Positions 13,631 through 35,819 of a stretch of 36,501 nt of DNA are shown here, one piece after another. The DNA is from a virus: positions 1 to 36,501 of IMG/VR virus record IMGVR_UViG_3300046819_000366; one strand, written 5' to 3'. Both the position numbers and the translations under genes were made by a program. Positions within the stretch are counted from its first letter, which is position 1. Every line of letters begins with the position of its first letter. Below the pieces are notes generated by a model, which did no database searches, was not told the DNA's origin, and saw only the letters and a program-made list of their open reading frames with translations.

Positions 13631-14305
13631 ATGATTCCTAAAATAATATGGCAAACACACGAAAATAAATATAAGGATCTAGAGCCATTTCAAAAAAATA
13701 TTGTAAACACTTGGAAAAACTTAAATCCTGGCTGGGAATATAATTATGTTACTGCAGAGGAAAGACATGAACATATAAAAAAATACGATAATTTTTTATA
13801 TGAATGCTATAAGTTGTCACCTGCAGTAAATCAAACAGATATTTGGAGATTGATTGTTATATATGAATATGGTGGGTTTTATGCAGACATGGACTCTGTA
13901 TGCACCAGGCCTTTAGACGACATTATGCTTAACTGTTATAATAATGAAGATATGATATGTTCTCCAATTGCATATCAACACTACGGAGTCAATAATTCAA
14001 ACTTTGCTGGCTTAAAAAACAGCAAAATAATAAAATTAATGTTAGATAAAGCAACAGAGAAATGCATAAAATTTAAAGAATCTGATCCTGTAAATATTTT
14101 AAATTCACACATTGGACAACCATGTAATGGTTTATTTTCAAGTATAGCTTTAAAAAATACAAATAAAATTTGTTTTAATAATGAATACTTCTTGCATTCT
14201 TTAGACTATAAGGTAGATTTTAATAAAAAATATAACATATTCTATAAACAAAAAAAAATGTTTTATCTTGATTTAGCAAATGAAAATAATTGGATAATTT
14301 ACTAA
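13631..14305 (+). CDS. Glycosyltransferase with DXD motif (Och1/GT32-like)
   Basis: MIPKIIWQTH at the N-terminus, then PAVNQTDIWRLIVIYEYGG and YADMD (D86 and D88), are the hallmarks of the DXD sugar-transferase family that uses nucleotide sugars and a divalent metal. At 224 aa it is a compact single-domain form. It starts exactly at the predicted +1 of TGATATAAT (13617-13624). It may glycosylate a phage structural protein, a host surface glycan or DNA; the substrate is unknown. Confidence 0.8.
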   Translation: MIPKIIWQTHENKYKDLEPFQKNIVNTWKNLNPGWEYNYVTAEERHEHIKKYDNFLYECYKLSPAVNQTDIWRLIVIYEYGGFYADMDSVCTRPLDDIMLNCYNNEDMICSPIAYQHYGVNNSNFAGLKNSKIIKLMLDKATEKCIKFKESDPVNILNSHIGQPCNGLFSSIALKNTNKICFNNEYFLHSLDYKVDFNKKYNIFYKQKKMFYLDLANENNWIIY

Positions 14306-14956: not shown

Positions 14957-15700
14957 ATGGCCATATCAAAGAATATGGATGCTCCAAAAACAAAATATTC
15001 GGAAGCTGTTAAGTATACAAAAAGCATAGAAGCAAATAATACTGAGTATATTGCTGTTCCAGGAATCCAGGGCGAAAAAGGTGAAGCTGGACCAATAGGA
15101 CCGCCAGGACCAGAGGGACCAAGGGGTGAAAGAGGCATTCCAGGTAAAGACGGTAAGGACGGTCCACAAGGCCCACAAGGGCCTAAAGGGGAGCCTGGCA
15201 GAGGCGGTGGAGAAGGATATGAAAGTCCTTCAGGTCAATACCCAGGTTGGGCATATTATGAAAATAAAAATAAAAAACCAATGCTACTTGGACCAGATAG
15301 AGGCGACGACGGCTGGGTAGATATTTTAATGGATGACGACATAGATAGTAATATTTTAAGATTTCTTCCAGTAGGGTCTGTGTCACTCTGGAATTCTGTT
15401 ACTCAAAGAATTAATTTCAAACAATTAAAGGTAGGGGCAAGAGTAGATATCAGATATGATATAGCATTAACTACCGACACAAATAGCACTGAGGCTTGGA
15501 TAAGAACCTATATTCCAAAAGTAGAATCTCCAACAGGATATATTGGAATGCTCAAATATAAATATCCTTACGAAATGTCTATTAATCAAACCCTATATGT
15601 GGATCTTTCAAAAATTAGATCAGAGGGTGGAATAATTCAGGCAAGGGCAGATAATGAAAGCTCTATTATTCTTAAGGGAATGTATATCTCAATTTCATAA
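14957..15700 (+). CDS. Collagen-like tail-fibre protein, 247 aa
   Basis: Residues about 37-83 are Gly-X-Y triplets (GPIGPPGPEGPRGERGIPG and on), roughly 15 repeats with Pro in X and Y positions and GPP triplets. A short N-terminal segment precedes them. A C-terminal globular domain follows, with RFLPVGSVSLWNSVTQRIN. Such proteins form trimeric fibres. Nearby prolyl-4-hydroxylase-like enzymes could modify it (inference). Terminates at a bidirectional hairpin. Confidence 0.8.
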   Translation: MAISKNMDAPKTKYSEAVKYTKSIEANNTEYIAVPGIQGEKGEAGPIGPPGPEGPRGERGIPGKDGKDGPQGPQGPKGEPGRGGGEGYESPSGQYPGWAYYENKNKKPMLLGPDRGDDGWVDILMDDDIDSNILRFLPVGSVSLWNSVTQRINFKQLKVGARVDIRYDIALTTDTNSTEAWIRTYIPKVESPTGYIGMLKYKYPYEMSINQTLYVDLSKIRSEGGIIQARADNESSIILKGMYISIS

Positions 15701-19796: not shown

Positions 19797-22121
19797 ATGG
19801 CAACAAGAATGCAACAGCGCAGAGGTACTGCTGCTCAATGGATTTCAACAAATTCTGGCAACGGGCCAATCCTCAACGCAGGTGAAATCGGATTTGAAAC
19901 CGACACAAATAAGTTTAAAATTGGTGATGGCGTAAATCACTGGATCAACCTTGATTATTTTATTGATGCTAGCTCAACAGTAAACCCAGCCTTTGGCTCA
20001 AGCATTACTTTTGAGGGAGCAACATCAAATGCATTTGAAACCACAGTTTCCGTAACAGATCCAACTGCTGATCGCACAATCACTCTTCCAGATGCTAGTG
20101 GAACAGTGGTTTTGGCTGACGGTAGTGGAAATGTTACAGTATCAGGCGACTTAACAGTAAGCGGTACAACTACCACTATTAACAGCACAACAATTAATGC
20201 TACAACAGGAATTGTATTTGAAGGTCTTACAGCAGATGCTTTTGAAACTACATTAGCTATAACAGACCCTACAGCAGATAGAACGCTAACTCTTCCAGAC
20301 TCAACTGGAACACTTGTCACACAAGGATATGTAGATACTTTGGCTTCCAATCACACCTCAGCGACAACAAATGTGCATGGGATTTCAGATACAAGTGGTC
20401 TAGCAACAAAGACTTACGCAGATGCAGCGGTAACAACGCATAAAGCAGATACTATAGATATACATGGAATTGCAAATACATCACTTTTGACAACCACAAC
20501 AAACACGCAAACTTTAACAAATAAAACACTTACAAGCCCCAAAATCAATGAAGATGTTGTATTGACAGCAACAGCAACTGCTTTAAATTACGTATCTGGT
20601 GTCACTTCTTCTATTCAAACTCAGCTAGACAATAAGCAAAACATTGATGCCAATGTTTCAAGTGTTGAAATTGGATACCTAAGTGGCGTAACTTCGGATA
20701 TTCAGACTCAATTAAATAACAAGCAACCGATTGTTGCAAACGTATCAGATGTTGAAATTGGCTACCTTGACGGAGTAACCTCATCTATTCAAACACAAAT
20801 GGATGCTAAAGCACCATTAGCCTCACCTACCTTTACAGGTACTGTAATACTTCCTGCAAATACAATTTCACAATCAATGATGGGCGATGACTCAGTTGGT
20901 ACAAATGAAATTGCTGCTCTAGCAGTAACAGAAGGCAAGATTGCTGCTCTAGCAGTAACAGAAGGCAAGATTGCAGATGGCGCAGTAACTTCAGCCAAAA
21001 TTGCAACAGGAACAATTGTTAATGAAGACATTAATGCATCAGCAGCAATTGCTCAGTCCAAGGTTGCAGATCTTACTACTGACCTTGCAGCAAAGCTTGC
21101 TTTAGCTGGCGGAACAATGACTGGGGCACTTACTCTATCAGGAGCCCCAACATCTGACCTTCACGCAGCAACTAAGTTGTATGTTGACAACGTAACTGCT
21201 GGATTAAACTTCCATGAGGCAGTACACGCTGCAACAACTGTAAACTTAGCAACTATTTATAGCAACGGAACATCTGGGGTAGGGGCAACTCTTACAGCCG
21301 ACACAAACCGCGCTATGACTACAATTGATGGTGAGAGCGTTGTCCTTAACGAAAGAGTTCTTGTAAAGAACCAGACAGACGCTAAGCAAAACGGTATCTA
21401 TGTATTGACAACATTGGGCTCAGTCTCTGCTCCTTGGGTGCTTACCCGCGCAACAGACGCAGATAACAACCCAACTGGGGAAATGAAAAACGGAGACTTT
21501 ACATTTGTTCAGCGCGGAACAGTAAACGCCTCTATTGGTTTTATTAATAACTCAGCAACAAACCCAATTGTAATTGGTACCGACAACATTACATACACAG
21601 AGTTTAACGCTGGTAAGACAGTTGTTGCTGGCGATGGTTTAACAGAAGCAACACCAGGAACAATTTCAATTGATACATTAGTTACTGCTACAAAAGCTTC
21701 TGTAGACTTAAAGGCCCCAATTGATGCCCCAACATTTACTGGATTGGTAACGGTTGCTGCATCTGGAGTAGCATTTACAGACGGTACACAGACAAAAGAA
21801 GGCGTCCCATCTCAGACACTAATCATTCAGAAGACAGCATCATACACACTTTCATCACTTACTGAAAGAGATGACCTAATTGAGATGGCTTCAGGGTCAG
21901 CAATGACACTAACAATCCCAGCAGATAGCACATTAAACTTCCCAATCGGAACCTCCCTTGACGTCCTGCAAACATCAACTGGACAGGTTACAATTGCAGG
22001 TGCTGGTGGAGTAACAGTTAACGCAACACCAGGATTAAATCTAAGAACTCAGTGGTCATCTGCAACTCTATTTAAGAGAGCAGCAAATACTTGGGTTGTT
22101 TTTGGCGACTTGACAGCTTAA
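19797..22121 (+). CDS. Large modular tail fibre with Mtd-like N-terminus, 774 aa
   Basis: The N-terminus (MATRMQQRRGTAAQWIS, GEIGFETDTNKFKIGDG) is the major-tropism-determinant N-terminal type. It then has three FETT...DPTADRT modules, three copies of VEIGYL(S/D)GVTS-IQTQ, two identical 10-aa blocks from a 30-bp tandem repeat, a domain with ERVLVKNQTDAKQNGIYVL, and a beta C-terminus. A TGATATAAT lies 30 nt upstream with AGAGGAGA as binding site. Probable receptor-binding fibre. Confidence 0.75.
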   Translation: MATRMQQRRGTAAQWISTNSGNGPILNAGEIGFETDTNKFKIGDGVNHWINLDYFIDASSTVNPAFGSSITFEGATSNAFETTVSVTDPTADRTITLPDASGTVVLADGSGNVTVSGDLTVSGTTTTINSTTINATTGIVFEGLTADAFETTLAITDPTADRTLTLPDSTGTLVTQGYVDTLASNHTSATTNVHGISDTSGLATKTYADAAVTTHKADTIDIHGIANTSLLTTTTNTQTLTNKTLTSPKINEDVVLTATATALNYVSGVTSSIQTQLDNKQNIDANVSSVEIGYLSGVTSDIQTQLNNKQPIVANVSDVEIGYLDGVTSSIQTQMDAKAPLASPTFTGTVILPANTISQSMMGDDSVGTNEIAALAVTEGKIAALAVTEGKIADGAVTSAKIATGTIVNEDINASAAIAQSKVADLTTDLAAKLALAGGTMTGALTLSGAPTSDLHAATKLYVDNVTAGLNFHEAVHAATTVNLATIYSNGTSGVGATLTADTNRAMTTIDGESVVLNERVLVKNQTDAKQNGIYVLTTLGSVSAPWVLTRATDADNNPTGEMKNGDFTFVQRGTVNASIGFINNSATNPIVIGTDNITYTEFNAGKTVVAGDGLTEATPGTISIDTLVTATKASVDLKAPIDAPTFTGLVTVAASGVAFTDGTQTKEGVPSQTLIIQKTASYTLSSLTERDDLIEMASGSAMTLTIPADSTLNFPIGTSLDVLQTSTGQVTIAGAGGVTVNATPGLNLRTQWSSATLFKRAANTWVVFGDLTA
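20911..20970 (+). repeat. Exact 30-bp tandem duplication in the fibre gene
   Basis: The 30 bases at 20911-20940 recur without change at 20941-20970, duplicating ten residues (ALAVTEGKIA register). In frame. Confidence 0.9.
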
Positions 22122-22142: not shown

Positions 22143-23411
22143 ATGGCAGCAGGTAAAAAAATTGGAAAAAAGTCACAAGCTTCAAATGACTTTTTAGCAC
22201 CAGCCGCACCAATAAACGTTGTTGGTACAGACGTAGGAACAGGTAGAGCGTTTGGTGATGGCTCAGTATCAATTGCTTTTGAATTGCCAGCAGATTCCCG
22301 ACCAGCAACTTCCTATACAGTAACAGCCAGCGTAGGAGTTGCAGGACCATTTTATAATATGCCAGCTACAGCAACTGGATCATCTTCTCCACTTGTAATT
22401 TCTGGTTTTCAAACGGGAGCAGCACCAACATTTACAGTAACAGCAACTAACGCATCAGGAACTTCCGCTGCTTCTGCTGCTTCTGCTGCAGTAACAGTAA
22501 CAACGGTTCCAGGAAAAATGGATGTCCCAACCGTAACAGCTGGAGTTAATCAAAACTCTATTGCATTTACAGCTCCAGCAACTGGCGGTAAATCCATCAC
22601 CAGCTATACAGTGACAGGCTCTGATGGTACTTCTGGAACTGGTGCTACCTCTCCAATTGTTATTGCAGATACTGCTGGCACTTCTCAGACATATACAGTC
22701 AGAGCGACTAACGCTAACGGAGCAGGATTTAATTCTGACGCTTCTGGGTCAGTTACTACCTTATCTCCATTCTTCCCACCGTTCTTTCCTCCATTTTTCC
22801 CTCCATTTTTCCCATTTTTCCCTCCATATTTCCCATTTTTCCCAGGATTTGGACCATCATTCCCATTTTTCCCTCCATATTTCCCATTTTTCCTTTCTGC
22901 ACCTGGCAAAGGATCATTAGGAAGCAACGTTCTTGTTAGAACAGAAAATGGATTAGTTCGTGCACAAGATCTAAAGGTTGGTGACGTTCTTTTATCTCTA
23001 GATATTCCAGGCATTCCTCAAAACTTTACATCTATTGGAACAACTGCAGAAGATCTAGCAGCAATGATCTGGGATACAGAGACTATTTCATCTTCAACTC
23101 CAGCACTGACTACAATTAAAAGTATATCTGTTAATGAAAGAGAAGGCGCTGTATCTGTAAATGGAGAAATGTTTACACGTGCACACTACCTATTTATTGA
23201 AAGAAATGGAGTTGCAAAAATTGTAACTGTATCAGAACTTCTTAGTACTGATAAGGTATACAACTACACTGATTCACAATTTGTTGATATACATGATTTA
23301 GAGTTTTTAGATATAACATACTTTGCATATAGTATTAACTGTGAACCATTTGACTTCTTCTGGACAGAGCATTCATTAACATTTGATAATATTGAATGGA
23401 ATCAAGACTAG
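22143..23411 (+). CDS. Fn3 - Phe/Pro repeat - Hint-like protein, 422 aa
   Basis: Two fibronectin-III-like domains (about 20-120 and 125-205) are followed by a 42-residue stretch of only F, P, Y and a few G/S (PFFPPFF repeats, 209-250). A Hint (hedgehog/intein) domain follows: S258 in the position of the usual Cys, V-x-T-x-x-G (265-270), LKVGD (277-281) and block-B-like T345-x-x-H348. The end (CEPFDFFW...TFDN) resembles the intein C-terminal block with DN instead of HN. AAAGGGGAATAAA precedes the ATG. Likely a tail tip or surface protein, perhaps self-processed. Confidence 0.7.
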   Translation: MAAGKKIGKKSQASNDFLAPAAPINVVGTDVGTGRAFGDGSVSIAFELPADSRPATSYTVTASVGVAGPFYNMPATATGSSSPLVISGFQTGAAPTFTVTATNASGTSAASAASAAVTVTTVPGKMDVPTVTAGVNQNSIAFTAPATGGKSITSYTVTGSDGTSGTGATSPIVIADTAGTSQTYTVRATNANGAGFNSDASGSVTTLSPFFPPFFPPFFPPFFPFFPPYFPFFPGFGPSFPFFPPYFPFFLSAPGKGSLGSNVLVRTENGLVRAQDLKVGDVLLSLDIPGIPQNFTSIGTTAEDLAAMIWDTETISSSTPALTTIKSISVNEREGAVSVNGEMFTRAHYLFIERNGVAKIVTVSELLSTDKVYNYTDSQFVDIHDLEFLDITYFAYSINCEPFDFFWTEHSLTFDNIEWNQD

Positions 23412-23424
23412 ATATAATAAAAAA

Positions 23425-23931
23425 ATGATTGTTTATGAAAATAACAAATCTATAAATTTTACTCCAAGTATTAGTCAGTATCCAGAAGAATTATTTGGTT
23501 CTTGGTTTTGTTTTACAAACATAGAAAATCATCCTATTCTTTCAGGAATATGTTCAGTTTACTTTAACGACAAATATCCAAGTGGAACAATACTTCTATC
23601 TAATTATATAATTGATGAATATCCAGACATATATGCTACTTGGGATAAAGATTATATGTCCAATAAAATGTTTGTCTCACCCAAACTAAGAAAAAGTGGA
23701 AAAGGAAAAAATGCACTTATTGTTGGTGATCAATTTATTAAATTTTTAGGAAATGAGCTAAAGTATTCTTATGGAGAACACAAGAATGGAGATTTTTTAT
23801 TTAATGGGGCATATTCATTAGATAAAGAAATTGAAAATAAAAAAGTTGATGATTTTAACATGTTTGATTTTAGAGATCCAGCATATCCAATAATACATTT
23901 TGATAAAAGGTTTATAAGATATGAAGTATAA
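23425..23931 (+). CDS. Unknown protein, possibly GNAT-like, 168 aa
   Basis: Leaderless: GATATAAT sets +1 on the ATG at 23425. MFVSPKLRKSGKGKNALIVG (about 90-110) recalls the acetyl-CoA-binding V-x-P-x-x-(R/Q)-x-x-G-x-G turn of N-acetyltransferases. The rest gives no clear match. Opens the accessory island; the stop overlaps the next gene. Confidence 0.45.
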   Translation: MIVYENNKSINFTPSISQYPEELFGSWFCFTNIENHPILSGICSVYFNDKYPSGTILLSNYIIDEYPDIYATWDKDYMSNKMFVSPKLRKSGKGKNALIVGDQFIKFLGNELKYSYGEHKNGDFLFNGAYSLDKEIENKKVDDFNMFDFRDPAYPIIHFDKRFIRYEV

Positions 23932-24493
23932 ACGCAGAGACATTAAAGTATTTACAAAAAATATAGATAGCTTAAATGCTGATCATATTTTAAATTTAAG
24001 CAAAAACATGCATGATGATATATATACTTGTGAAAATTTAAAAAAAATAGAGTCCATAACTATAGACAAGCCTCAAAATATATTTCAGGAATATAATACA
24101 GAAACATATAAAATTTATAAAGAAATTTCAGAATTATTAAATGAAGCATGTAAGCACTACTCAATATATCAATATAGACAAGATTATTTTATTAAAGGTA
24201 AATTATTTAAATATACTAAAGATAACAATAATGAAATTTTTGATTTTCCAGGAAGAGACGTGCCAGTGTTTCATGGATTTGTTGTGCTTGGATCAGAAGG
24301 AATACAGCAAACATATTATACTGATAATGATAAACAAGAATATAGGTTTAATACAAACACAGTTACATTATCGTCCCCAACCAATCTTATAAATACAAAG
24401 GTTAAAGAAAGTTGTATTGTTATAGAATATTATTTATCACCTTTATCATCTATTCTAAACAATGACCAAAGGTTGTGGATTCCCATACTATAG
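23921..24493 (+). CDS. Unknown protein, possible degenerate oxygenase/cupin fold, 190 aa
   Basis: Overlaps the upstream gene by 11 bases. The C-terminal half (VPVFHGFVVLGSEGIQQTYYTDN... SCIVIEYYLSP) looks like a double-stranded beta-helix but lacks a clear HxD/H set. Very AT-rich. Its place next to the oxygenases suggests a relative, with low certainty. Confidence 0.4.
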   Translation: MKYKRRDIKVFTKNIDSLNADHILNLSKNMHDDIYTCENLKKIESITIDKPQNIFQEYNTETYKIYKEISELLNEACKHYSIYQYRQDYFIKGKLFKYTKDNNNEIFDFPGRDVPVFHGFVVLGSEGIQQTYYTDNDKQEYRFNTNTVTLSSPTNLINTKVKESCIVIEYYLSPLSSILNNDQRLWIPIL

Positions 24494-24520: not shown

Positions 24521-25114
24521 ATGAAATCTTATAGTGTAGATACATTTTTAGACCCTGACGACTTTAATAAGGTTTCTAATATCTGTATTGAAAAAGTTAA
24601 AGAATTTAGTCATTTACATTACGCAGACGGATACAGCAGATACGGATCATTTATAAATTTTCCTACAGAAATAGAGGATCTCTTTACTGCAAAGGCAAGA
24701 AGATATTTTAAAATAGATGATTTGCTAATTACATATATACAGATAGTTAAGTACCAGATAATTAATGGCAATATTCCAAAACTTCTTCCACACGTGGATA
24801 AGCTACCATGTACGCATATTATTGACTTGTGTATTGATACAACCTTAAAAGACTGGGGGCTTTTAGTTGAAGATAGTTTATTTATAGACAAGCCCAATTC
24901 TGCAGTATTTCTATATGGAAGTGAAGAAATACATTCAAGACCAGAGTATACATCAACTAACGAAAATGACTATTCTTTACAGCTTTTTATAAATTTTGCA
25001 CCACCAGATTTTTGGTTTTTTAAAGGGGATTATAAGAAAGCACTAAAATATATTATTCCTGCACCAATTATGTATAATAAAGAAAACAATAATATTAATT
25101 TAATGCAAAAATAG
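24521..25114 (+). CDS. Divergent 2OG-Fe(II)-like protein, 197 aa
   Basis: Leaderless from TGGTATAGT. LPHVDKLPCTH gives H91-x-D93 and EEIHSRPEY gives H138, a possible metal triad. There is no Lys or Arg at +10 from the distal His, unlike the six typical family members downstream. It may have a different co-substrate or be inactive. Confidence 0.5.
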   Translation: MKSYSVDTFLDPDDFNKVSNICIEKVKEFSHLHYADGYSRYGSFINFPTEIEDLFTAKARRYFKIDDLLITYIQIVKYQIINGNIPKLLPHVDKLPCTHIIDLCIDTTLKDWGLLVEDSLFIDKPNSAVFLYGSEEIHSRPEYTSTNENDYSLQLFINFAPPDFWFFKGDYKKALKYIIPAPIMYNKENNNINLMQK

Positions 25115-25165
25115 TTTTAAGGATTATTTATTCTTGTGTTATAATATAATAGATAGGAGATAGTG

Positions 25166-25879
25166 ATGAACATTTATGATGAAAATGAAAACGACTGGTT
25201 TAATAAAGATAGATCAGAGACCGCCTCTAATAGGGTTGCCTTAAGAAATATAGAAAATGGCATTAGTGTTGAAAATTTAAGTTTGGGTTTAAACATTTAT
25301 AAAAATACTTTTTCACTAAAAGATGCAAACAGATACATTCAAACATTAGAGTCAAATCTATCTAATGGAAAAAGATTTAAATGGTCTGAGGCTACTGTGA
25401 CAAATTCACCAAATCCAATTAAAAAAGCAAGAGATTGTGTGGATTTTAAATATAAGCAAGTGGACTTAGGTCCAAGAGATGAATCTAACTCTGAGTTAAT
25501 AGAATTACATGAAGAGATATATCAGAAGTTAAAGTACTGTATAGATGATTATGCCAAGTACTGGGGAATAAATGTGGTATATTACGAAGCATTTAACTTT
25601 GTAAAGTATGAAGGAGAAGGAACTCACTTTAATATTCACGCAGACCACGGCCCAGCATATAACTGTACAGTTTCTGCCGTTATTTATATTAATGATGATT
25701 ACGAAGGCGGAGACCTAAAGTTTCCAAGACTTGATAACTTAGTATACAAGCCAAAGGTAGGAGACATTGCAGTCTTCCCATCAAACTATATTTATGAGCA
25801 TGCATCTCTTCCAATGGAGTCTGGTACAAAATATTGTGTTGTCATTATGACAGACATTAATACTTTAGGTCATAATTAA
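25166..25879 (+). CDS. 2OG-Fe(II) oxygenase, prolyl-4-hydroxylase-like (1)
   Basis: AGATAGGAGATA lies before the start (GTG 25163 or ATG 25166). The C-terminal domain has H158-A-D160 and H212 as iron ligands and K222 exactly 10 residues later, the layout of collagen-type prolyl 4-hydroxylases. NDDYEGGDLKFP is the P4H-family turn. Closely related to the gene at 26666 (EAFNFVKY, YNCTVS, FPSN, SGTKY shared). Confidence 0.85.
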   Translation: MNIYDENENDWFNKDRSETASNRVALRNIENGISVENLSLGLNIYKNTFSLKDANRYIQTLESNLSNGKRFKWSEATVTNSPNPIKKARDCVDFKYKQVDLGPRDESNSELIELHEEIYQKLKYCIDDYAKYWGINVVYYEAFNFVKYEGEGTHFNIHADHGPAYNCTVSAVIYINDDYEGGDLKFPRLDNLVYKPKVGDIAVFPSNYIYEHASLPMESGTKYCVVIMTDINTLGHN

Positions 25880-25884
25880 TACAT

Positions 25885-26655
25885 ATGAAGTCTAACATAG
25901 CAATTTTTAGATCTTTTAGGCCATGGTTAAATAAACAAAGCAAGTCTGTTCCAACGCCAACTCAAAGTGTTATTCCATCATGGTATAAAGACGCAGACAG
26001 ATTTGCAAAAATGTCAAATGGGGAATACTACAAGGCTCCAAAAGAACTTTGCCCGTTCCCTAAAGAAGGCACAACTGATGACTATGGGAAGGTGCCTACA
26101 TGGAAGGCATGTCCAGCAATTATGGATGCATTCTCAACTGGATATGTATTTAAAACTCCTTGTGATTTAGTATTTGTTAAAAATGATCAAGGAATAATTA
26201 CTGTAAAAAATGAAGATCCAATGCACCAAGATTTTTGTATACCAAGATCACCAATGCCACAGTTTGAACATCCACAAGGATACTACAAAAACCATTTTGC
26301 TTGGTATTCTGATTGGGGATTAGAGCTACCAGAAGGATATAGTGCACTATTTATGACACCAATGAATAGGTTTGACCTTCCTTTTTTAAATACCACTGGA
26401 GTTGTAGATTCTGATAAGGTTCATCTTTTAGGAACTTTTCCATTTTTTGTAGCAGAAGGATGGGAAGGAACAATTCCAGCAGGAACCCCATACCTTCAGG
26501 TTTTGCCATTTAAAAGAGAAAACTGGGATCACAAAATAGAGATATTAGATCAGTCTCAAATTTATGATAAAATGGTTGATAACATGAAATTTTACCGACA
26601 GCCAGATGGCGGTATATATAAAAACAAAGTTTGGTCAAGAAGAGAATATAAATAA
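25885..26655 (+). CDS. DUF6065-like protein, 256 aa (1)
   Basis: FRPWLNKQSKSVPTPTQS, then GYVFKTPCDLVFV, GYSALFMTPMNRFD and AGTPYLQVLPFKREN. The order suggests the DUF6065 family or a sister family, often seen near oxygenases in phage genomes (from memory). It may be a beta-sandwich partner or substrate-binding protein. Six bases after the oxygenase stop, same strand. Confidence 0.5.
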   Translation: MKSNIAIFRSFRPWLNKQSKSVPTPTQSVIPSWYKDADRFAKMSNGEYYKAPKELCPFPKEGTTDDYGKVPTWKACPAIMDAFSTGYVFKTPCDLVFVKNDQGIITVKNEDPMHQDFCIPRSPMPQFEHPQGYYKNHFAWYSDWGLELPEGYSALFMTPMNRFDLPFLNTTGVVDSDKVHLLGTFPFFVAEGWEGTIPAGTPYLQVLPFKRENWDHKIEILDQSQIYDKMVDNMKFYRQPDGGIYKNKVWSRREYK

Positions 26656-26665
26656 GGGGAAATAA

Positions 26666-27322
26666 ATGCAAACATGGACAGATAAAAAAGATTATGGCAA
26701 TGGAATAATTTGTTATAAAAATGTTATTAAAAAAGAAATTGATTTAATTAAGAGGCTTGAAGAAAATCTCAAGCCAGAGGGAGATAACACTGGGTATAGT
26801 TGGCTACCAGCTTATGTTGGGTATCAGCAATTAATGCCAGAGTATAGAAATTGTAATGACTTTAAATTTAAAAAAACTGATCTTGCACCAGATAGAAGCC
26901 AAGTATCTTTAAATCTACAAGACCTTTGGCAAGATGTTTATGATGTACAGTCTCCAGCAGTTGAAGACTATTGCAGGACTCATAATATAACCGAACTAAA
27001 GTATTGGGAAGCCTTTAACTTTATTAAATATGGTCCAGGACAACACTTTATGGAGCATCACGACCATGGGTTCTCATATAACTGTACAGTGTCTCTTGTG
27101 GCCTATCCTAATGATGACTATGAGGGTGGAGAGTTGTACTTTAGACTTCAAAACCTAAACATTAAACCAGAAGCAGGAGATCTTTTTATTTTTCCTTCAA
27201 ACTTTATGTATCCTCATCAAGCAATGCCAGTAAAGTCAGGTACAAAATACTCAATTGTAACTATGCTTGATTATAATAAGAAGTTTCATACGCCTGAAAT
27301 GTATATTGACGATAGACACTAA
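26666..27322 (+). CDS. 2OG-Fe(II) oxygenase, prolyl-4-hydroxylase-like (2)
   Basis: AAGGGGAAATAA precedes the ATG. H131-H-D133, H184 and K194 (+10) form a complete active-site set. NDDYEGGELYF is present. Paralogue of the gene at 25166. Its stop overlaps the next start (TAATG), so it is coupled to the second DUF6065-like gene. Confidence 0.85.
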   Translation: MQTWTDKKDYGNGIICYKNVIKKEIDLIKRLEENLKPEGDNTGYSWLPAYVGYQQLMPEYRNCNDFKFKKTDLAPDRSQVSLNLQDLWQDVYDVQSPAVEDYCRTHNITELKYWEAFNFIKYGPGQHFMEHHDHGFSYNCTVSLVAYPNDDYEGGELYFRLQNLNIKPEAGDLFIFPSNFMYPHQAMPVKSGTKYSIVTMLDYNKKFHTPEMYIDDRH

Positions 27323-28035
27323 TGTATAGAATATCAGTTCAAAAACAGCAAGGATCTCTTTTTACTATTGCTCCAATGTCAATAAAAAGAGATTGGATGG
27401 ATCAGACATCTGAAAACCATGCCTACAGATGTTTTCCAGTAACCCAAGCAAACGTAATTGGATGGAATCTTACATGTGAGGAAGATATTGAGTTTGAGTG
27501 GGATGGAATAAATGATCAAACAGGTGAGCATGTAAAAATATTTAAACCAGAAGGTTCTTACTCTGGAAGAGGTCAGTCCTCCATAAGCTTAAATACTGGT
27601 TTAGTTTTTAGAACAGATAATGACGTTAGCATTTGGACAATTAATCCAGTTAACTATTTTAGTGAATATTTTGAAACTATGTCTAATTTGGTTAGTACTT
27701 CATTTTATCCAAATCCACTACCATTAGCAATTAAAGCAAAAAAATCAAATGAAAGAGTAACAATAAGAGCAGGTACTCCAATAGCAACTATTATTCCTAT
27801 ATCTTTGACAGATTTAAATAATACTTCTATTATTATTAATAATTATGAAGATTTAGATGGGTCTAAAAGTAAGGCAAATATGTCATATGGAGAAGCAGCA
27901 CAAGTAATGAACAAGTCTGGACAATGGACAGATTGGTATAGAGATGCTGTTAATGAAAAGGGCGAAAGTAAAGGCTCCCATGAAGTAAAAACTTTAAAGC
28001 TTTTTGTAAAAGATCAGACTAAGAAAAAAATATAA
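27322..28035 (+). CDS. DUF6065-like protein, 237 aa (2)
   Basis: RCFPVTQANVIGWNLTCEEDI followed by EFEWDG is the DUF6065 signature as I know it. A later RAGTPIATIIPISL matches AGTPYLQVLPF of the first copy in position. Family function unknown. Coupled to oxygenase 2. Confidence 0.6.
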   Translation: MYRISVQKQQGSLFTIAPMSIKRDWMDQTSENHAYRCFPVTQANVIGWNLTCEEDIEFEWDGINDQTGEHVKIFKPEGSYSGRGQSSISLNTGLVFRTDNDVSIWTINPVNYFSEYFETMSNLVSTSFYPNPLPLAIKAKKSNERVTIRAGTPIATIIPISLTDLNNTSIIINNYEDLDGSKSKANMSYGEAAQVMNKSGQWTDWYRDAVNEKGESKGSHEVKTLKLFVKDQTKKKI

Positions 28036-28069
28036 ATTGTAGTCTAGAACCCTATGATATAATCAAGTT

Positions 28070-28744
28070 ATGAACAAAAATAGCGCCTCAGTTGTAGTTA
28101 GAAAGCCATCAATTACCCCCTCTGGTTGGTTTGGTAATAGCAAGGATATGATTGTTGAATTAGAAAACTTCATGACAGAAAAAGAAATTGCATTTTTAGA
28201 AAAATCTGCAAGTTCTATAACTATCTGGGATATAACACAAAGTCACATAAATGAAAATGGGACAGTCGTGTATGATTCAGATTACTGGAAGGACAGAGTA
28301 GCAACCCAGCCTTCTTTAGACAAAAATGACCCATCTATATCACCAGTAATTAAAGGTTTGTTTGAAAGATTAAAACCAATTATTGAAAATTTTTATAAAG
28401 TAGAAGCTACTCCTACAGGAACAACAATTGTTAAATGGCTTCCAGGTCAGCTTCAAAATCCTCATGCAGACAAAGAACTTCATGAAGGTCCAGATGCTGG
28501 TCTTCCCAATGACTTTCCCAACTATGATATTGCAAGTCTATTTTATTTAAATGATGATTACGAAGGTGGAGAGTTGTACTTCCCTTTACAAGGAATTCAG
28601 TTTAAGCCCAAAAAAGGTGCTGCATACTTTTTCCCAGGGGATAGAAACTATATTCATGGAGTAACAGAGATCAAAAGTGGTATAAGGTATACCTGCCCAT
28701 TTTTTTGGGAAATTACAAAACATACTGGAGAAAGACAGCCATGA
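28070..28744 (+). CDS. 2OG-Fe(II) oxygenase (3), 224 aa
   Basis: Leaderless from TGATATAAT. H132-A-D134, H196 and R206 (+10). NDDYEGGELYFP is conserved. Arg replaces Lys as predicted 2-oxoglutarate ligand. Stop overlaps the next ATG (ATGA). Confidence 0.85.
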   Translation: MNKNSASVVVRKPSITPSGWFGNSKDMIVELENFMTEKEIAFLEKSASSITIWDITQSHINENGTVVYDSDYWKDRVATQPSLDKNDPSISPVIKGLFERLKPIIENFYKVEATPTGTTIVKWLPGQLQNPHADKELHEGPDAGLPNDFPNYDIASLFYLNDDYEGGELYFPLQGIQFKPKKGAAYFFPGDRNYIHGVTEIKSGIRYTCPFFWEITKHTGERQP

Positions 28745-29496
28745 ACTTAAATAATAAAAAAAGAATAACTAAAGATATTGTTGTGTATGAAAAATTTATT
28801 GATGAAAAGACTTGTCAAAAAATGATCAAAGCACTTGATGCCCATGCAGCCAATGGAAAGATTTCTTGGATGCCAATATCTTTTTATGAGTCATACTCTT
28901 CTGTTTTGCCACTGGATAATGACGAAGAAGTAATTTCTTTAGGGTTAAGTCCAACAATATTTTCAGATATTGAAAAGGCTATGCCTACAGCAATAGCATC
29001 AGTCCATGACCTTGACCCATTAACAATTGTTAAAATTGGCTATCATACACAAAAGTGGGAGCCAGGAGCATACGCAAGAATTCATTCTGACAATACAGAC
29101 GAGCATGGAAAGTCGGGAGCTTTTACAAGAAGCCGTTACGCAGGGTTTCTATACCTTAATGACGAGTTTGAAGGTGGACTACTTAAGTTTCCAGGTCAAA
29201 ACATAGAGATTAAACCAGAAGTGGGAATGCTCGCTGTATTTGACGGGGGATTTAACAATATGCATGAGGTATCATTAATTGAAAGCGGAGTAAGATATAC
29301 AATCGGATCATTTTGGGATGATAGAGAAGAGTCTGCATACCCACAAGAACTTAGAGATGCTTGGGCAGCAGAAATGAAAGAGACAAGATCAAAGCAAGAG
29401 CTTGAAAGAGCAGAATGGCAAAAATTACTTAAAGATGGATGGAAAATAGATTTAAATGGAAAGAAGTATAGAGTAGATGGTGATAAACATGATTGA
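28741..29496 (+). CDS. 2OG-Fe(II) oxygenase (4), 251 aa
   Basis: Starts at the overlapping ATGA (28741). H115-S-D117, H175 and R185 (+10). NDEFEGGLLKFP. A C-terminal charged extension after residue 195 (EMKETRSKQELERAEWQK) is absent from its paralogues and may be an interaction helix. Confidence 0.85.
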   Translation: MNLNNKKRITKDIVVYEKFIDEKTCQKMIKALDAHAANGKISWMPISFYESYSSVLPLDNDEEVISLGLSPTIFSDIEKAMPTAIASVHDLDPLTIVKIGYHTQKWEPGAYARIHSDNTDEHGKSGAFTRSRYAGFLYLNDEFEGGLLKFPGQNIEIKPEVGMLAVFDGGFNNMHEVSLIESGVRYTIGSFWDDREESAYPQELRDAWAAEMKETRSKQELERAEWQKLLKDGWKIDLNGKKYRVDGDKHD

Positions 29497-30148
29497 TTCT
29501 TTTAAGAAACAGTTGCTAAATAAAGGATATTCTATTAAGGAAATTACTTCAGAGATATTTTCTGTTGAAAACTTTTTATCAAAAGAACAGATAAATATTC
29601 TTTTAAGTATTATAAATGGTATTTCCCAAGAAGATTGGGAAGTAGAGTATTCCGCTAATTTAAAAACTTTTTGTATGACAAAGTTTGGAAGAGATGATGT
29701 AGAAAATCTGGTTGCTGAAGGTAAATTTGAAATTACTCAAAACTGGAAAGATAAAAATTTTAACATAGCAAATCATGAAATATATCGCAAAATATATGAT
29801 AACTTAAACTCAATGGTAGTGAATTCCAATTCAGAACTTCACCTAAGTGGATTTGCAACAATTCAAAGGATGCAACCTGGAGTAGAACTAAAGTCTCATT
29901 CAGATCAGCATACAGATCCATCCATCCAATATGCTACAATCGCATATATAAATGATGATTACTTAGATGGTGAATTATTTTTTCCACATTTAGGAATAGA
30001 GATAAAGCCTGAGCCAGGATCATTGTTATTTTTTCCAGGTAACAAAGAGCATGAGCATGGAGTAAGACACGTAGGAGAAGGTCCTATAAGATATGTTCTT
30101 GTTGGATTTATAAAAGAAAATGATCATTACATAAAGAATAAGTATTAG
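29489..30148 (+). CDS. 2OG-Fe(II) oxygenase (5), 219 aa
   Basis: The start at 29489 (MIDSFKKQLL) overlaps the upstream stop. H137-S-D139, H190 and R201 (+11, one residue longer than in the others). NDDYLDGELFFP. An N-terminal part of about 120 residues is unlike the other copies. Confidence 0.8.
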   Translation: MIDSFKKQLLNKGYSIKEITSEIFSVENFLSKEQINILLSIINGISQEDWEVEYSANLKTFCMTKFGRDDVENLVAEGKFEITQNWKDKNFNIANHEIYRKIYDNLNSMVVNSNSELHLSGFATIQRMQPGVELKSHSDQHTDPSIQYATIAYINDDYLDGELFFPHLGIEIKPEPGSLLFFPGNKEHEHGVRHVGEGPIRYVLVGFIKENDHYIKNKY

Positions 30149-30158
30149 GAGAATAACA

Positions 30159-30893
30159 ATGAATAAAGAAATATTAGATCCAAAAGTTTACTACTATACT
30201 GATGCTATAAAAAATTTTGATAAGTTCCAAAGTGTTTTAAAAGAACTGGACAATCTTGATTCAAATAATGAATATGGAGTAAATATCTGGAATCCTTGGA
30301 CATCTTCTAATGATAAAAACTTTATTTATGGTGAAACAAAAACATTTGATATTAATGCAATAAATAGTTTAGGTGGCAAAGTTGGAGAAAAAAGCAAGTA
30401 TGTTTATGATGCAATAACAACTACTCTTTATAATGTTTGCAAAGATTATGCTACTTCCCTAGGAGATTTTGATGAGCCAAGACTTTTTCCAACATTTAAT
30501 ATAAAAAAATATAACACTGGAATGGGAATGGGAGCCCACTTTGATCAACTAGACGGAGACAAAACCCTAAGATATTCTCTTGTAATGTATTTAAATGATG
30601 ATTGTGAAGGTGGAGAAATATCTTTTCAATTAAAAGATTACAATGGTGGATGGACAAGTGCTGATGGTTTTTCTAAAGGTGTAGCACCAGCAGTAGATTT
30701 AGACTATGATGTATCTGTTGCAAGCGGAGCAATTGATTTTGGATTAAAGCCAAAAGCAAACAGTGTTATAATTTTTCCAGCATTTCCTCCATATTTTCAT
30801 ACAGCACATATTGTAAAGTCTGGCTTTAAATATATGGTGCCTGGACACTGGATTCATAATGGAATGGATCTGAATAAATCTAACGGTATGTAG
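30159..30893 (+). CDS. 2OG-Fe(II) oxygenase (6), 244 aa
   Basis: TAGGAGAATAAC before the ATG. H127-F-D129, H214 and K224 (+10). NDDCEGGEISFQL, with an insertion of about 30 residues (GGWTSADGFSKG and on) between the HxD and distal His. Ends two codons before the dehydrogenase start. Confidence 0.8.
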   Translation: MNKEILDPKVYYYTDAIKNFDKFQSVLKELDNLDSNNEYGVNIWNPWTSSNDKNFIYGETKTFDINAINSLGGKVGEKSKYVYDAITTTLYNVCKDYATSLGDFDEPRLFPTFNIKKYNTGMGMGAHFDQLDGDKTLRYSLVMYLNDDCEGGEISFQLKDYNGGWTSADGFSKGVAPAVDLDYDVSVASGAIDFGLKPKANSVIIFPAFPPYFHTAHIVKSGFKYMVPGHWIHNGMDLNKSNGM

Positions 30894-31562
30894 ATGAAGA
30901 CAGCAATAGTCACAGGTGCCAGCAAGGGTGTTGGATATGCAACTGTTAAACGATTATCTGAAAATGGATACAGAGTTATTGCTGTTTCAAGAGACCTTTC
31001 TAAAGTATCTGAACTTGTATCTGATAATGTTGAAGTATATAGCCTAGATATTACAGACTCTAAAGCAATACAGGTATTTTTTGAAAAATATAAAGATATC
31101 ACCTTAGACCTATTGGTTAATAATGCAGGTGGAGGGTCTGGACCAACTCATATTATAAATGAAACCCCAGAAAACTTTAGAAAGTCTTATGACATAAATG
31201 TCACTGGCCCTATGTATCTATCTCAGCTATTTGTTCCTTGTATGGAAAGATCAGAGTCTCCAACTATTATTTTTATAACTTCCTTTGGTGGAAAAATACC
31301 ATATCGTGGTGGAGGCAATTATACAAATGCCAAAAGAGGACAGAGAGGTTTAATAGATACAATGAGGCTAGAGTTCCCTCAGTTTGGAATTAAGATTACA
31401 GAAATCTGTCCAGCAACCATTGATACTCAAAAAGAAAAAAGGGATAATGCTTTAACTGCAGAAGATTTATCAGAAGCAATTTTTTGGGTTGGATCTTTAC
31501 CAAAGCATCTAAATATTAATCAAATAGAGATGTGTCATATAAATAGTAGCAAGTTTGGCTAG
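30894..31562 (+). CDS. Short-chain dehydrogenase/reductase, 222 aa
   Basis: TGASKGVG (residues 7-14) binds the nucleotide. NNAG (about 76-79), S130 and Y143-x-x-x-K147 are the catalytic set. The ATG directly follows the oxygenase stop. It could oxidise or reduce a hydroxylated or sugar substrate made by neighbours; substrate unknown. Confidence 0.85.
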   Translation: MKTAIVTGASKGVGYATVKRLSENGYRVIAVSRDLSKVSELVSDNVEVYSLDITDSKAIQVFFEKYKDITLDLLVNNAGGGSGPTHIINETPENFRKSYDINVTGPMYLSQLFVPCMERSESPTIIFITSFGGKIPYRGGGNYTNAKRGQRGLIDTMRLEFPQFGIKITEICPATIDTQKEKRDNALTAEDLSEAIFWVGSLPKHLNINQIEMCHINSSKFG

Positions 31563-33808: not shown

Positions 33809-34216
33809 ATGAGTACAACAAATAATCCGCTAATTAATCAAAAGACTGGCTTGCCTATTGTGGGTAATGTCAGAAAAAAGGTCATTGAGAAGAACTATGA
33901 TTGGGGCCTATATGTTTATAAAAAGGCTTCTGGAAAGTGGTTTACGGACGGCGACGGTAATGTTTTAAACATTGAATCAATGCGTGGTGATATTGCCAAG
34001 ATTACAGAACTAAAGAGTGCAGCAAGACACTATGGAGATCCTGGAGATGGTGACGCAGTATTTGTTCCAGGACTAACCAGGATTACTGAAGAAGAACACT
34101 CAGAGCAACTTGATCGTATGGTTAATGGTTTGATTCCATCAAGAAATGATTTAGGTGCATGGCATGCAGCACAACAGACTCTTAAGACTCACGGGAAAGA
34201 AGCATTTGATGAGTAA
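33809..34216 (+). CDS. Hypothetical protein upstream of portal, 135 aa
   Basis: The start is set by TGGTATACT: +1 is one base before the ATG at 33809 (MSTTNNPLINQ), so the ATG at 33803 is less likely. KKVIEKNYDWGLYVYKKASGKWF and a C-terminal helix. It overlaps the portal gene by 8 bases. Perhaps a packaging or head accessory protein; no family recognised. Confidence 0.7.
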   Translation: MSTTNNPLINQKTGLPIVGNVRKKVIEKNYDWGLYVYKKASGKWFTDGDGNVLNIESMRGDIAKITELKSAARHYGDPGDGDAVFVPGLTRITEEEHSEQLDRMVNGLIPSRNDLGAWHAAQQTLKTHGKEAFDE

Positions 34217-35819
34217 TGACCAAGACTATACATATATTTCTGCCAGCTTAAATACACAAGAAGAAAAAGATAATCCATTTAAAGAACAAGATCCATTCAA
34301 TAAGTCTTGGGACATTCTAAAAGATTATTCTGGACTAGATCAAAACTTTCGTAGAAGAACTGCAAGAAATATTGGCAAAGCCCTAGACATAAATAATACA
34401 GCATATCTTGACTCAGCAAATGCAACTCCTGCAGGTGTAGATGCGGGATCAAAAGCTATAAATCCTGGTACTGTATATCGCAATGGCTATGGAATCTATG
34501 ATGTAATTACTCCACCATACAATCTTTATGAACTTGCAAATTTTTATGACACATCATTTGCTAACCATGCTGCTATTGATGCTAAGGTAGCTAATATTGT
34601 TGGACTTGGTTATTCATTTGAAGTAACAGATCGTACAATGCTAAGTCTTGAAAATAAAGATGACGAGTTAGCAGTTGGTCGTGCTCGTAAGCGTATTGAA
34701 AGAATGAAGCTTGAAATGCGTGATTGGCTAGAAAATCTTAATGACGATGATTCTTTTACTAAGACAATGGAAAAGGTTTACACAGATGTTGAGTCTACTG
34801 GAAATGGATATATTGAAGTAGGTCGCACTGTTAACGGAGATATTGGATATATTGGCCACATCCCTTCAACTACTGTTCGCATCCGTCGTTTACGTGATGG
34901 ATACATGCAAATTATTGGACAAAAGATTGTTTACTTTAGAAACTTTGGTGCAAGAAATGTTAACCCAGTAACAGATGATCCACGTCCAAATGAAATTATT
35001 CATATTAAAGAATATTCTCCATTAAATACATATTATGGAATCCCTGATATTATTGCAGCACTACCGTCATTGATTGGCGATCAACTTGCATCACAATATA
35101 ATATTGATTATTTTGAGAACAAGGCTGTTCCAAGATATGTCGTAACACTCAAGGGTGCAAAGCTATCTGGAGAAGCAGAAGACAAGATGTTCCGATTCTT
35201 GCAGACAGGACTAAAAGCTCAGTCACACAGAACTCTTTACATACCACTTCCTGGCGACACAGATCAAAATAAAGTTGAGTTTGATATGAAGCCAATTGAG
35301 AATGGCATTCAGGATGGATCGTTTAAAGAGTACCGCAAGCAAAATCGTGATGATATTCTTGTTGCACATCAGGTTCCAATTTCAAAACTTGGCGGTACTG
35401 ATTCAGCAGCAATCGCAGCATCAATTGCACAGGATAGAACATTTAAAGAGCAGGTATCTCGTCCAGCACAAGGACACCTGAATAAAGTCATTAGCAAAAT
35501 CATCAAGGAAAAAACAGATATCCTTGAACTTAAGTTCAATGAGCTAACCCTAACTGATGAAATTACTCAGTCACAAATTCTTGAAAGATATGTAAAGACT
35601 CAGGTAATGATGCCAAATGAGGCTCGTGAAGCTATTGGTCTTCCTCAACATCCAGACGGAGATGCTCCTTTTGTTATGTCTCCAAGACAGGCAACAGATA
35701 CTGCAGCAAATCTTGCTGGTAATAGATCAAGAGATTCAGAAAGAACAAACAGCCAATCCGATGGTCCTGCAACCACAAGTGGTCGCAATGCACAGGGTGA
35801 AGGTAGATCGTCTCAATAA
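34209..35819 (+). CDS. Phage portal protein (PBSX/HK97-like)
   Basis: The true start is the ATG at 34209 (MSNDQDYTYIS), overlapping the upstream stop; the frame extends further upstream to 34155. PPYNLYELANFYDTSFANHAA and EVGRTVNGDIGYIGHIPSTT, then HIKEYSPLNTYYGIPDIIAA, YFENKAVPRYVVTL and VPISKLGGTDSAA follow the portal family order. It forms the DNA-entry ring of the capsid. The tail end is low-complexity Ser/Arg/Gly. Confidence 0.88.
   Translation: MSNDQDYTYISASLNTQEEKDNPFKEQDPFNKSWDILKDYSGLDQNFRRRTARNIGKALDINNTAYLDSANATPAGVDAGSKAINPGTVYRNGYGIYDVITPPYNLYELANFYDTSFANHAAIDAKVANIVGLGYSFEVTDRTMLSLENKDDELAVGRARKRIERMKLEMRDWLENLNDDDSFTKTMEKVYTDVESTGNGYIEVGRTVNGDIGYIGHIPSTTVRIRRLRDGYMQIIGQKIVYFRNFGARNVNPVTDDPRPNEIIHIKEYSPLNTYYGIPDIIAALPSLIGDQLASQYNIDYFENKAVPRYVVTLKGAKLSGEAEDKMFRFLQTGLKAQSHRTLYIPLPGDTDQNKVEFDMKPIENGIQDGSFKEYRKQNRDDILVAHQVPISKLGGTDSAAIAASIAQDRTFKEQVSRPAQGHLNKVISKIIKEKTDILELKFNELTLTDEITQSQILERYVKTQVMMPNEAREAIGLPQHPDGDAPFVMSPRQATDTAANLAGNRSRDSERTNSQSDGPATTSGRNAQGEGRSSQ

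Follow-up and report, generated by a model that had tools for sequence, protein, structure and literature searches.

Why does a tailed phage keep six diverged oxygenases next to each other, and which molecules would they modify? This question is raised by a 36.5-kb virus record in IMG/VR (IMGVR_UViG_3300046819_000366), the whole of which is called the window here. An earlier note on this DNA had reported an island of prolyl 4-hydroxylase (P4H)-like oxygenases at positions 25166-30893, and this region was found to hold eight tightly packed + strand genes, named A, D1, B, D2, C, Dd, E and F, between the tail-fibre region and a class II ribonucleotide reductase (RNR). Six of them (A, B, C, Dd, E and F) encode 2-oxoglutarate (2OG)-Fe(II) oxygenases and almost certainly form one conserved module of functional enzymes. 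We give about even chances to this cassette being a dedicated protein-hydroxylation module of the host-recognition region, with repetitive virion proteins, chiefly a Phe-Pro array protein encoded upstream, as substrates; activity, substrate, residue and virion role are all things that we infer. That the substrates are virion proteins is probable.

Oxygenases of the cassette

The six oxygenases are intact open reading frames (ORFs), each of which scores above the gathering threshold of 27 for PF13640 (2OG-FeII_Oxy_3), with 33.2-54.2 bits, and matches phrog_61 '2OG-Fe(II) oxygenase'. Oxygenase A (25163..25879, ATG at 25166; 43 bits) carries HAD...H...K with the lysine at +10 (H159xD161/H213/K223), and B (26666..27322; 54 bits) carries HHD...H...K, also at +10 (H131/D133/H184/K194). 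C (28070..28744) has HAD...H...R at +10 (H132/D134/H196/R206), and its stop is overlapped by the start of Dd (28741..29496), which has HSD...H...R at +10 (H115/D117/H175/R185). E (29477..30148) shows HSD...H...R with the arginine at +11 (H141/D143/H194/R205), and F (30159..30893) shows HFD...H...K at +10 (H127/D129/H214/K224). The earlier note's description of six full-length genes, with three Lys, three Arg and a single +11 spacing, was therefore exact. The iron triad and the 2OG anchor, Lys in A, B and F and Arg in C, Dd and E, were retained without exception, gaps aside, in 91-142 distinct relatives per gene (140 for A, 142 for B, 136 for C, 126 for Dd, 91 for E and 102 for F). Arg as the 2OG anchor is also found in PHD-type prolyl hydroxylases. 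Pairwise, the six share about 21-43% identity over their aligned parts. The description of a run of six has to be modified, because the oxygenases are clustered but the run is interrupted by D1 (25885..26655, + strand), which lies between A and B, and by D2 (27322..28035, + strand; DUF6065, PF19541, 100.5 bits), which lies between B and C. Both proteins have matches to phrog_7084, and their genes are part of the cassette unit.

Relatives of B are encoded in 520 IMG/VR stretches, and the best 80 of these 520, at 81-85% identity, were kept. The order A-D1-B-D2-C-Dd-E-F, i.e., six oxygenases and two DUF6065/phrog_7084 proteins, was present in 102 of the fetched loci (single loci are given L numbers below); in variants of the cassette A, B, D1 and D2 are shuffled or extra copies are added, and as many as 13 PF13640 genes occur in a whole record. 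Purifying selection on all eight genes is strong, with median ratios of nonsynonymous to synonymous substitution rates (dN/dS) of 0.048-0.080 by the Nei-Gojobori method for pairs 85-97% identical. Moreover, each of the six oxygenases formed one monophyletic clade in a tree of 67 rows, in which A groups with B and C with Dd, and hence the paralogues had already separated by the time that these phages diverged. Taken together, the conserved order, the invariant motifs, the low dN/dS and the separate clades indicate that all eight genes are kept as working, non-redundant parts. The earlier suggestion that the enzymes serve several substrates or positions would fit such monophyletic clades under purifying selection.

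Structure prediction, carried out among the oxygenases for B, gave a confident AlphaFold2 model (pLDDT 92, pTM 0.89), whose double-stranded beta-helix is most similar to those of known prolyl hydroxylases. Its top PDB matches by Foldseek were the Pseudomonas putida P4H, the viral collagen P4H (vCPH) of PBCV-1, an algal P4H and PHD2 (TM 0.56-0.67), and the Bacillus anthracis P4H was also among the structural matches. In agreement with this, the sequence profile of B matches the B. anthracis P4H (E 3e-5) and, weakly, the lysyl hydroxylase LH3, so that the term P4H-like is supported for B. D1 and D2 were considered as further oxygenases and rejected, since neither shows profile similarity to the six families and the D1 fold differs. 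The D1 model is confident (pLDDT 92), beta-rich and unlike the oxygenases; a weak dUTPase-like (beta-clip) resemblance has a best E of 1.6e-3 and a query TM of about 0.3 or less, and the clear matches are uncharacterised phage proteins only. By sequence D1 had no match in the PDB, and it is related to D2 by profile comparison (E 7.6e-6). Homologues of D1 with 27-31% identity also occur in 49 records of haloarchaeal tailed viruses, e.g., HF2, near RNR. In HF2 no oxygenase is annotated within 6 kb of the homologue, and thus D1 is not bound to oxygenases everywhere.

The Phe-Pro array protein upstream

Upstream of and outside the region of the earlier note lies the gene of a virion-type protein (22143..23411, + strand), which has an N-terminal Ig/FN3-like part, an array of FFPP and FFP at about residues 210-250 and a C-terminal Hint-like domain. 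It had no Pfam or PHROG match in the window, but its relatives do carry fn3. Hint is a self-processing domain; the copy in the window is without the usual first Cys, which is present in relatives (GCVDEDTLI in L054:340-1656 and QCIYEDTLI in L106:6071-7393), and most other copies of the array protein end in a Cys/Gly-rich tail instead. In the 136 arrays of the relatives the median length is 68 residues, with up to 172, and the composition is nearly pure F, P and Y (5207 F, 4146 P and 187 Y).

The linkage between array and cassette was counted from both sides. For loci found by oxygenase or DUF6065 matches and having at least 4 kb of upstream sequence, an array ORF was upstream in 51 of 51 cassettes; two apparent exceptions in a second count had the array ~5.5 kb upstream, past an insertion. 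From the array side, a DNA pattern for FFPPFFPFFP, which is blind to oxygenases, was used, and for ORFs with 3.5 kb downstream an oxygenase was found within that distance for 74 of 80 array ORFs among the matches listed. Three of the six exceptions (L102, L151 and L163) are extra arrays on contigs with a cassette elsewhere, in L145 the oxygenases are further downstream, and L090 has six oxygenases elsewhere in the record; the sixth is L129. The array and the oxygenases stay together in phages with a shuffled cassette order, and also where the Mtd fibre is replaced by a collagen-like gene (L159 and L200). Hence array and cassette are very strongly linked within this phage group, but the link is not an obligatory one elsewhere. 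A GC-rich codon pattern revealed one further lineage with arrays (L289, L291 and L294), and here they lie between FN3-like domains (L289:32-1777, L294:3189-6281 and L291:2603-3082). In L129 (L129:21-7053) the array protein stands amid several large collagen-like genes (GPTGPTG). Arrays in cellular genomes were also looked for and set aside: of seven pattern matches the sole real array ORF belonged to a virus-like fragment in a Chitinophagaceae metagenome-assembled genome (L284). Neither the FN3-like part of the array protein nor D2 had a match among 50,697 deposited phages (INPHARED).

Neighbouring genes and candidate substrates

Directly after F comes a short-chain dehydrogenase/reductase (30894..31562, + strand; PF00106, 136 bits), which is found in many, not all, cassettes. 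The fibre region starts with a glycosyltransferase (13631-14305; PF04488, DXD motif) and a collagen-like protein (14957..15700, + strand; PF01391, E 8.5e-8) with 18 G-X-Y triplets, a possible second substrate, and also holds an Mtd_N fibre gene at 19797. In or just upstream of related cassettes we found genes for an Asp/Asn beta-hydroxylase, TauD, glutathione peroxidase and TylF methyltransferases, and radical SAM-SPASM proteins, glycosyltransferases and an O-fucosyltransferase-like protein, the latter below its cut-off, are also inserted there. Such accessory genes are what a modification island would be expected to carry. The radical SAM-SPASM gene lies between the array gene and oxygenase A in L257:3440-4507, L264:1756-2823 and L242:3005-4006, and L264 adds TylF methyltransferase, PLP enzyme and IMPDH-like genes, an assembly that recalls peptide maturation clusters. 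A glutathione-peroxidase-like gene sits inside the cassette in nine loci (e.g., L015:5192-5965) and perhaps guards against uncoupled turnover.

The two genes preceding A, T1 (23921..24493) and T2 (24521..25114), both on the + strand, had been taken by the earlier note for decayed or distant relatives of the oxygenases, a view that the motif and profile tests did not support. T1 lacks the HxD...H triad and reached only a marginal 7.2 bits against F with all filters off. T2 has H91, D93 and H138, which are retained in 4 of 4 known homologues, so that it is not decayed in these. It lacks a K/R at +10, however, and comparing its profile with that of B (hhalign) gave a probability of 0.4%; T2 may be a distant member of the double-stranded beta-helix proteins. 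T1 and T2 are missing from most related cassettes. In a few relatives (L121, L151 and L172) they co-occur with the ORF at 23383-23931, which has an RKSGKGK stretch recalling the GNAT acetyl-CoA loop and no Pfam match.

Under the proposal of a hydroxylation module, freshly synthesised virion proteins with repeats would be modified inside the infected cell by the six oxygenases, with the two DUF6065-type proteins as helpers. The main target would be the Phe-Pro array protein, and the collagen-like protein may be another. Each enzyme would use 2OG and O2 to hydroxylate proline, or a neighbouring residue, in its own repeat context, i.e., FFP, the first or second P of FFPP, or collagen-type GxP. 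Hydroxylation would then stiffen a polyproline-like rod and/or supply attachment points for decoration, and we propose such further decoration because at the corresponding place related loci carry additional genes for glycosyltransferases, methyltransferases and radical-SAM/SPASM proteins. Several observations weigh against this proposal. The linkage lies inside one broad phage lineage, so that the loci share ancestry and the counts are not independent trials, and the correlation of oxygenase number with array length is weak (rho 0.25, p 0.011, uncorrected for phylogeny). L129 has no PF13640 gene in 38 kb, and the GC-rich lineage (L289, L291 and L294) has neither a PF13640 nor a PF13759 gene in 28-48 kb, although all these records may be incomplete; PF13759 was thus rejected as the missing 2OG partner in array-only records. 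Moreover, since C, Dd and E carry Arg as their anchor, their substrates may not be proline, and the oxygenases of cyanophage S-SCSM1 are clustered at tail fibre genes, where the 23 kb read contain no Phe-Pro array. The Mtd-type fibre, finally, is nearly as tightly linked to the cassette as the array, being upstream in 46 of 50 loci.

This last count also speaks for an alternative in which the enzymes hydroxylate other virion proteins, such as the Mtd_N fibre, the collagen-like protein or the DUF6065 proteins, and the Phe-Pro array is a mere neighbour. The presence of a collagen-like ORF in the window points the same way, and PMC9301287, citing Eriksson 1999, describes a viral P4H of PBCV-1 with peptide substrates. 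However, the array stays with the cassette when the fibre gene is replaced, and Pro-containing collagen-like ORFs occur in only 19 of 273 loci, and we regard this alternative as unlikely. Modification of host proteins (EF-Tu or ribosomal proteins) for cell takeover is suggested by the P. putida P4H, the top structural match of B, which was solved in complex with EF-Tu; it is made improbable by the accessory genes, which are transferases, and by the position of the six conserved copies, which are fixed next to a virion-type gene in the region of the tail fibres and do not lie with early genes.

Equally improbable in our view is an action on sugars or small molecules for modification of the host surface or virion glycans. 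The 2OG oxygenase superfamily includes small-molecule enzymes, and the dehydrogenase next door, the glycosyltransferase at 13631 and the sugar and methyltransferase genes of related loci would suit such a role, but in structure B comes nearest to peptidyl-prolyl hydroxylases. A tuning of the 2OG pool or of host metabolism, as published for cyanophage oxygenases as a proposal (PMC3037559, PMC9602691), would need neither six diverged, individually conserved enzymes nor their fixed association with a repeat protein, and is highly improbable here.

Related phages and significance

The portal of the window (34155-35819) is 45% identical over 98% to those of Stanwilliamsviridae, Streptomyces phages such as Yaboi, Bmoc and Daubenski, which share the order glycosyltransferase-RNR-...-portal. 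An aquatic actinobacterial host is thus plausible from this sequence likeness. In Yaboi the glycosyltransferase is directly followed by RNR, then endolysin and hypothetical genes and the portal, with no fibre, array or oxygenase block annotated between glycosyltransferase and RNR, and therefore this block looks inserted relative to the Stanwilliamsviridae backbone. The cassette-bearing phages are a widespread aquatic group.

The idea that phages carry single oxygenases and that six are unusual is only partly right and fails as a generalisation, because S-SCSM1 has 24 2OG-Fe(II) oxygenase genes (PMC9602691), four of them contiguous. T4-like cyanophages commonly have 1-5 (PMC9602691, PMC3037559), and pelagiphages have eight oxygenase types (PMC9599517). 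These expansions resemble the cassette in their many oxygenase genes, some of which are contiguous and lie close to tail fibres, whereas the cyanophage genes are largely scattered, are read as metabolic and have no Phe-Pro array in the region read; seven S-SCSM1 copies in the tree fell outside the six cassette clades, on long branches. The roles proposed in these papers are metabolic or in DNA repair (PMC9602691, PMC3037559, PMC9599517), and according to the authors of PMC9602691 no specific investigation of the functions has been made. The fixed pairing of cassette and array is apparently undescribed: the six-oxygenase/DUF6065 cassette, the Phe-Pro arrays and their linkage are absent from the open-access literature and INPHARED as searched, which is no proof of novelty, and the same literature held nothing relevant on FFPP arrays, DUF6065 or phage proline hydroxylation. 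The vCPH of PBCV-1 (5C5T) and bacterial and algal P4Hs share the fold and the metal and 2OG residues with B, and the former is viral, with Pro-rich repetitive substrates. PBCV-1 has one enzyme and is a eukaryotic virus, whereas here six diverged enzymes and two DUF6065 proteins form a fixed cassette of a tailed phage and lie beside Phe-Pro arrays. Extensins and collagens, with their P4Hs and glycosyltransferases, combine a repetitive Pro protein with several position-selective hydroxylases. They differ in being eukaryotic and in their repeat (SPPPP or GXY against FFPP), and for the phage the hydroxylation is a proposal.

Phage 2OG oxygenases are abundant and unexplained, and the tie between cassette and array names a concrete substrate, which makes the question directly testable. 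The block of hydroxylase-like enzymes beside the Phe-Pro repeats suggests that these phages may treat their own fibres chemically, to harden or decorate them, much as collagen is treated in animals. If the proposal is true, they would have a dedicated post-translational hydroxylation system for a structural protein, there would be a hydroxylated biomaterial of a prokaryotic virus, and the DUF6065 proteins would gain a function. More tentatively, and rather unlikely on present evidence, a Phe-Pro fibre based on hydroxyproline, or one that is first hydroxylated and afterwards glycosylated or cross-linked, may be a general virion material of tailed phages of aquatic bacteria, an extensin- or collagen-like (FFPP)n rod made by a position-specific cassette of six enzymes with DUF6065 proteins as substrate-handling partners.

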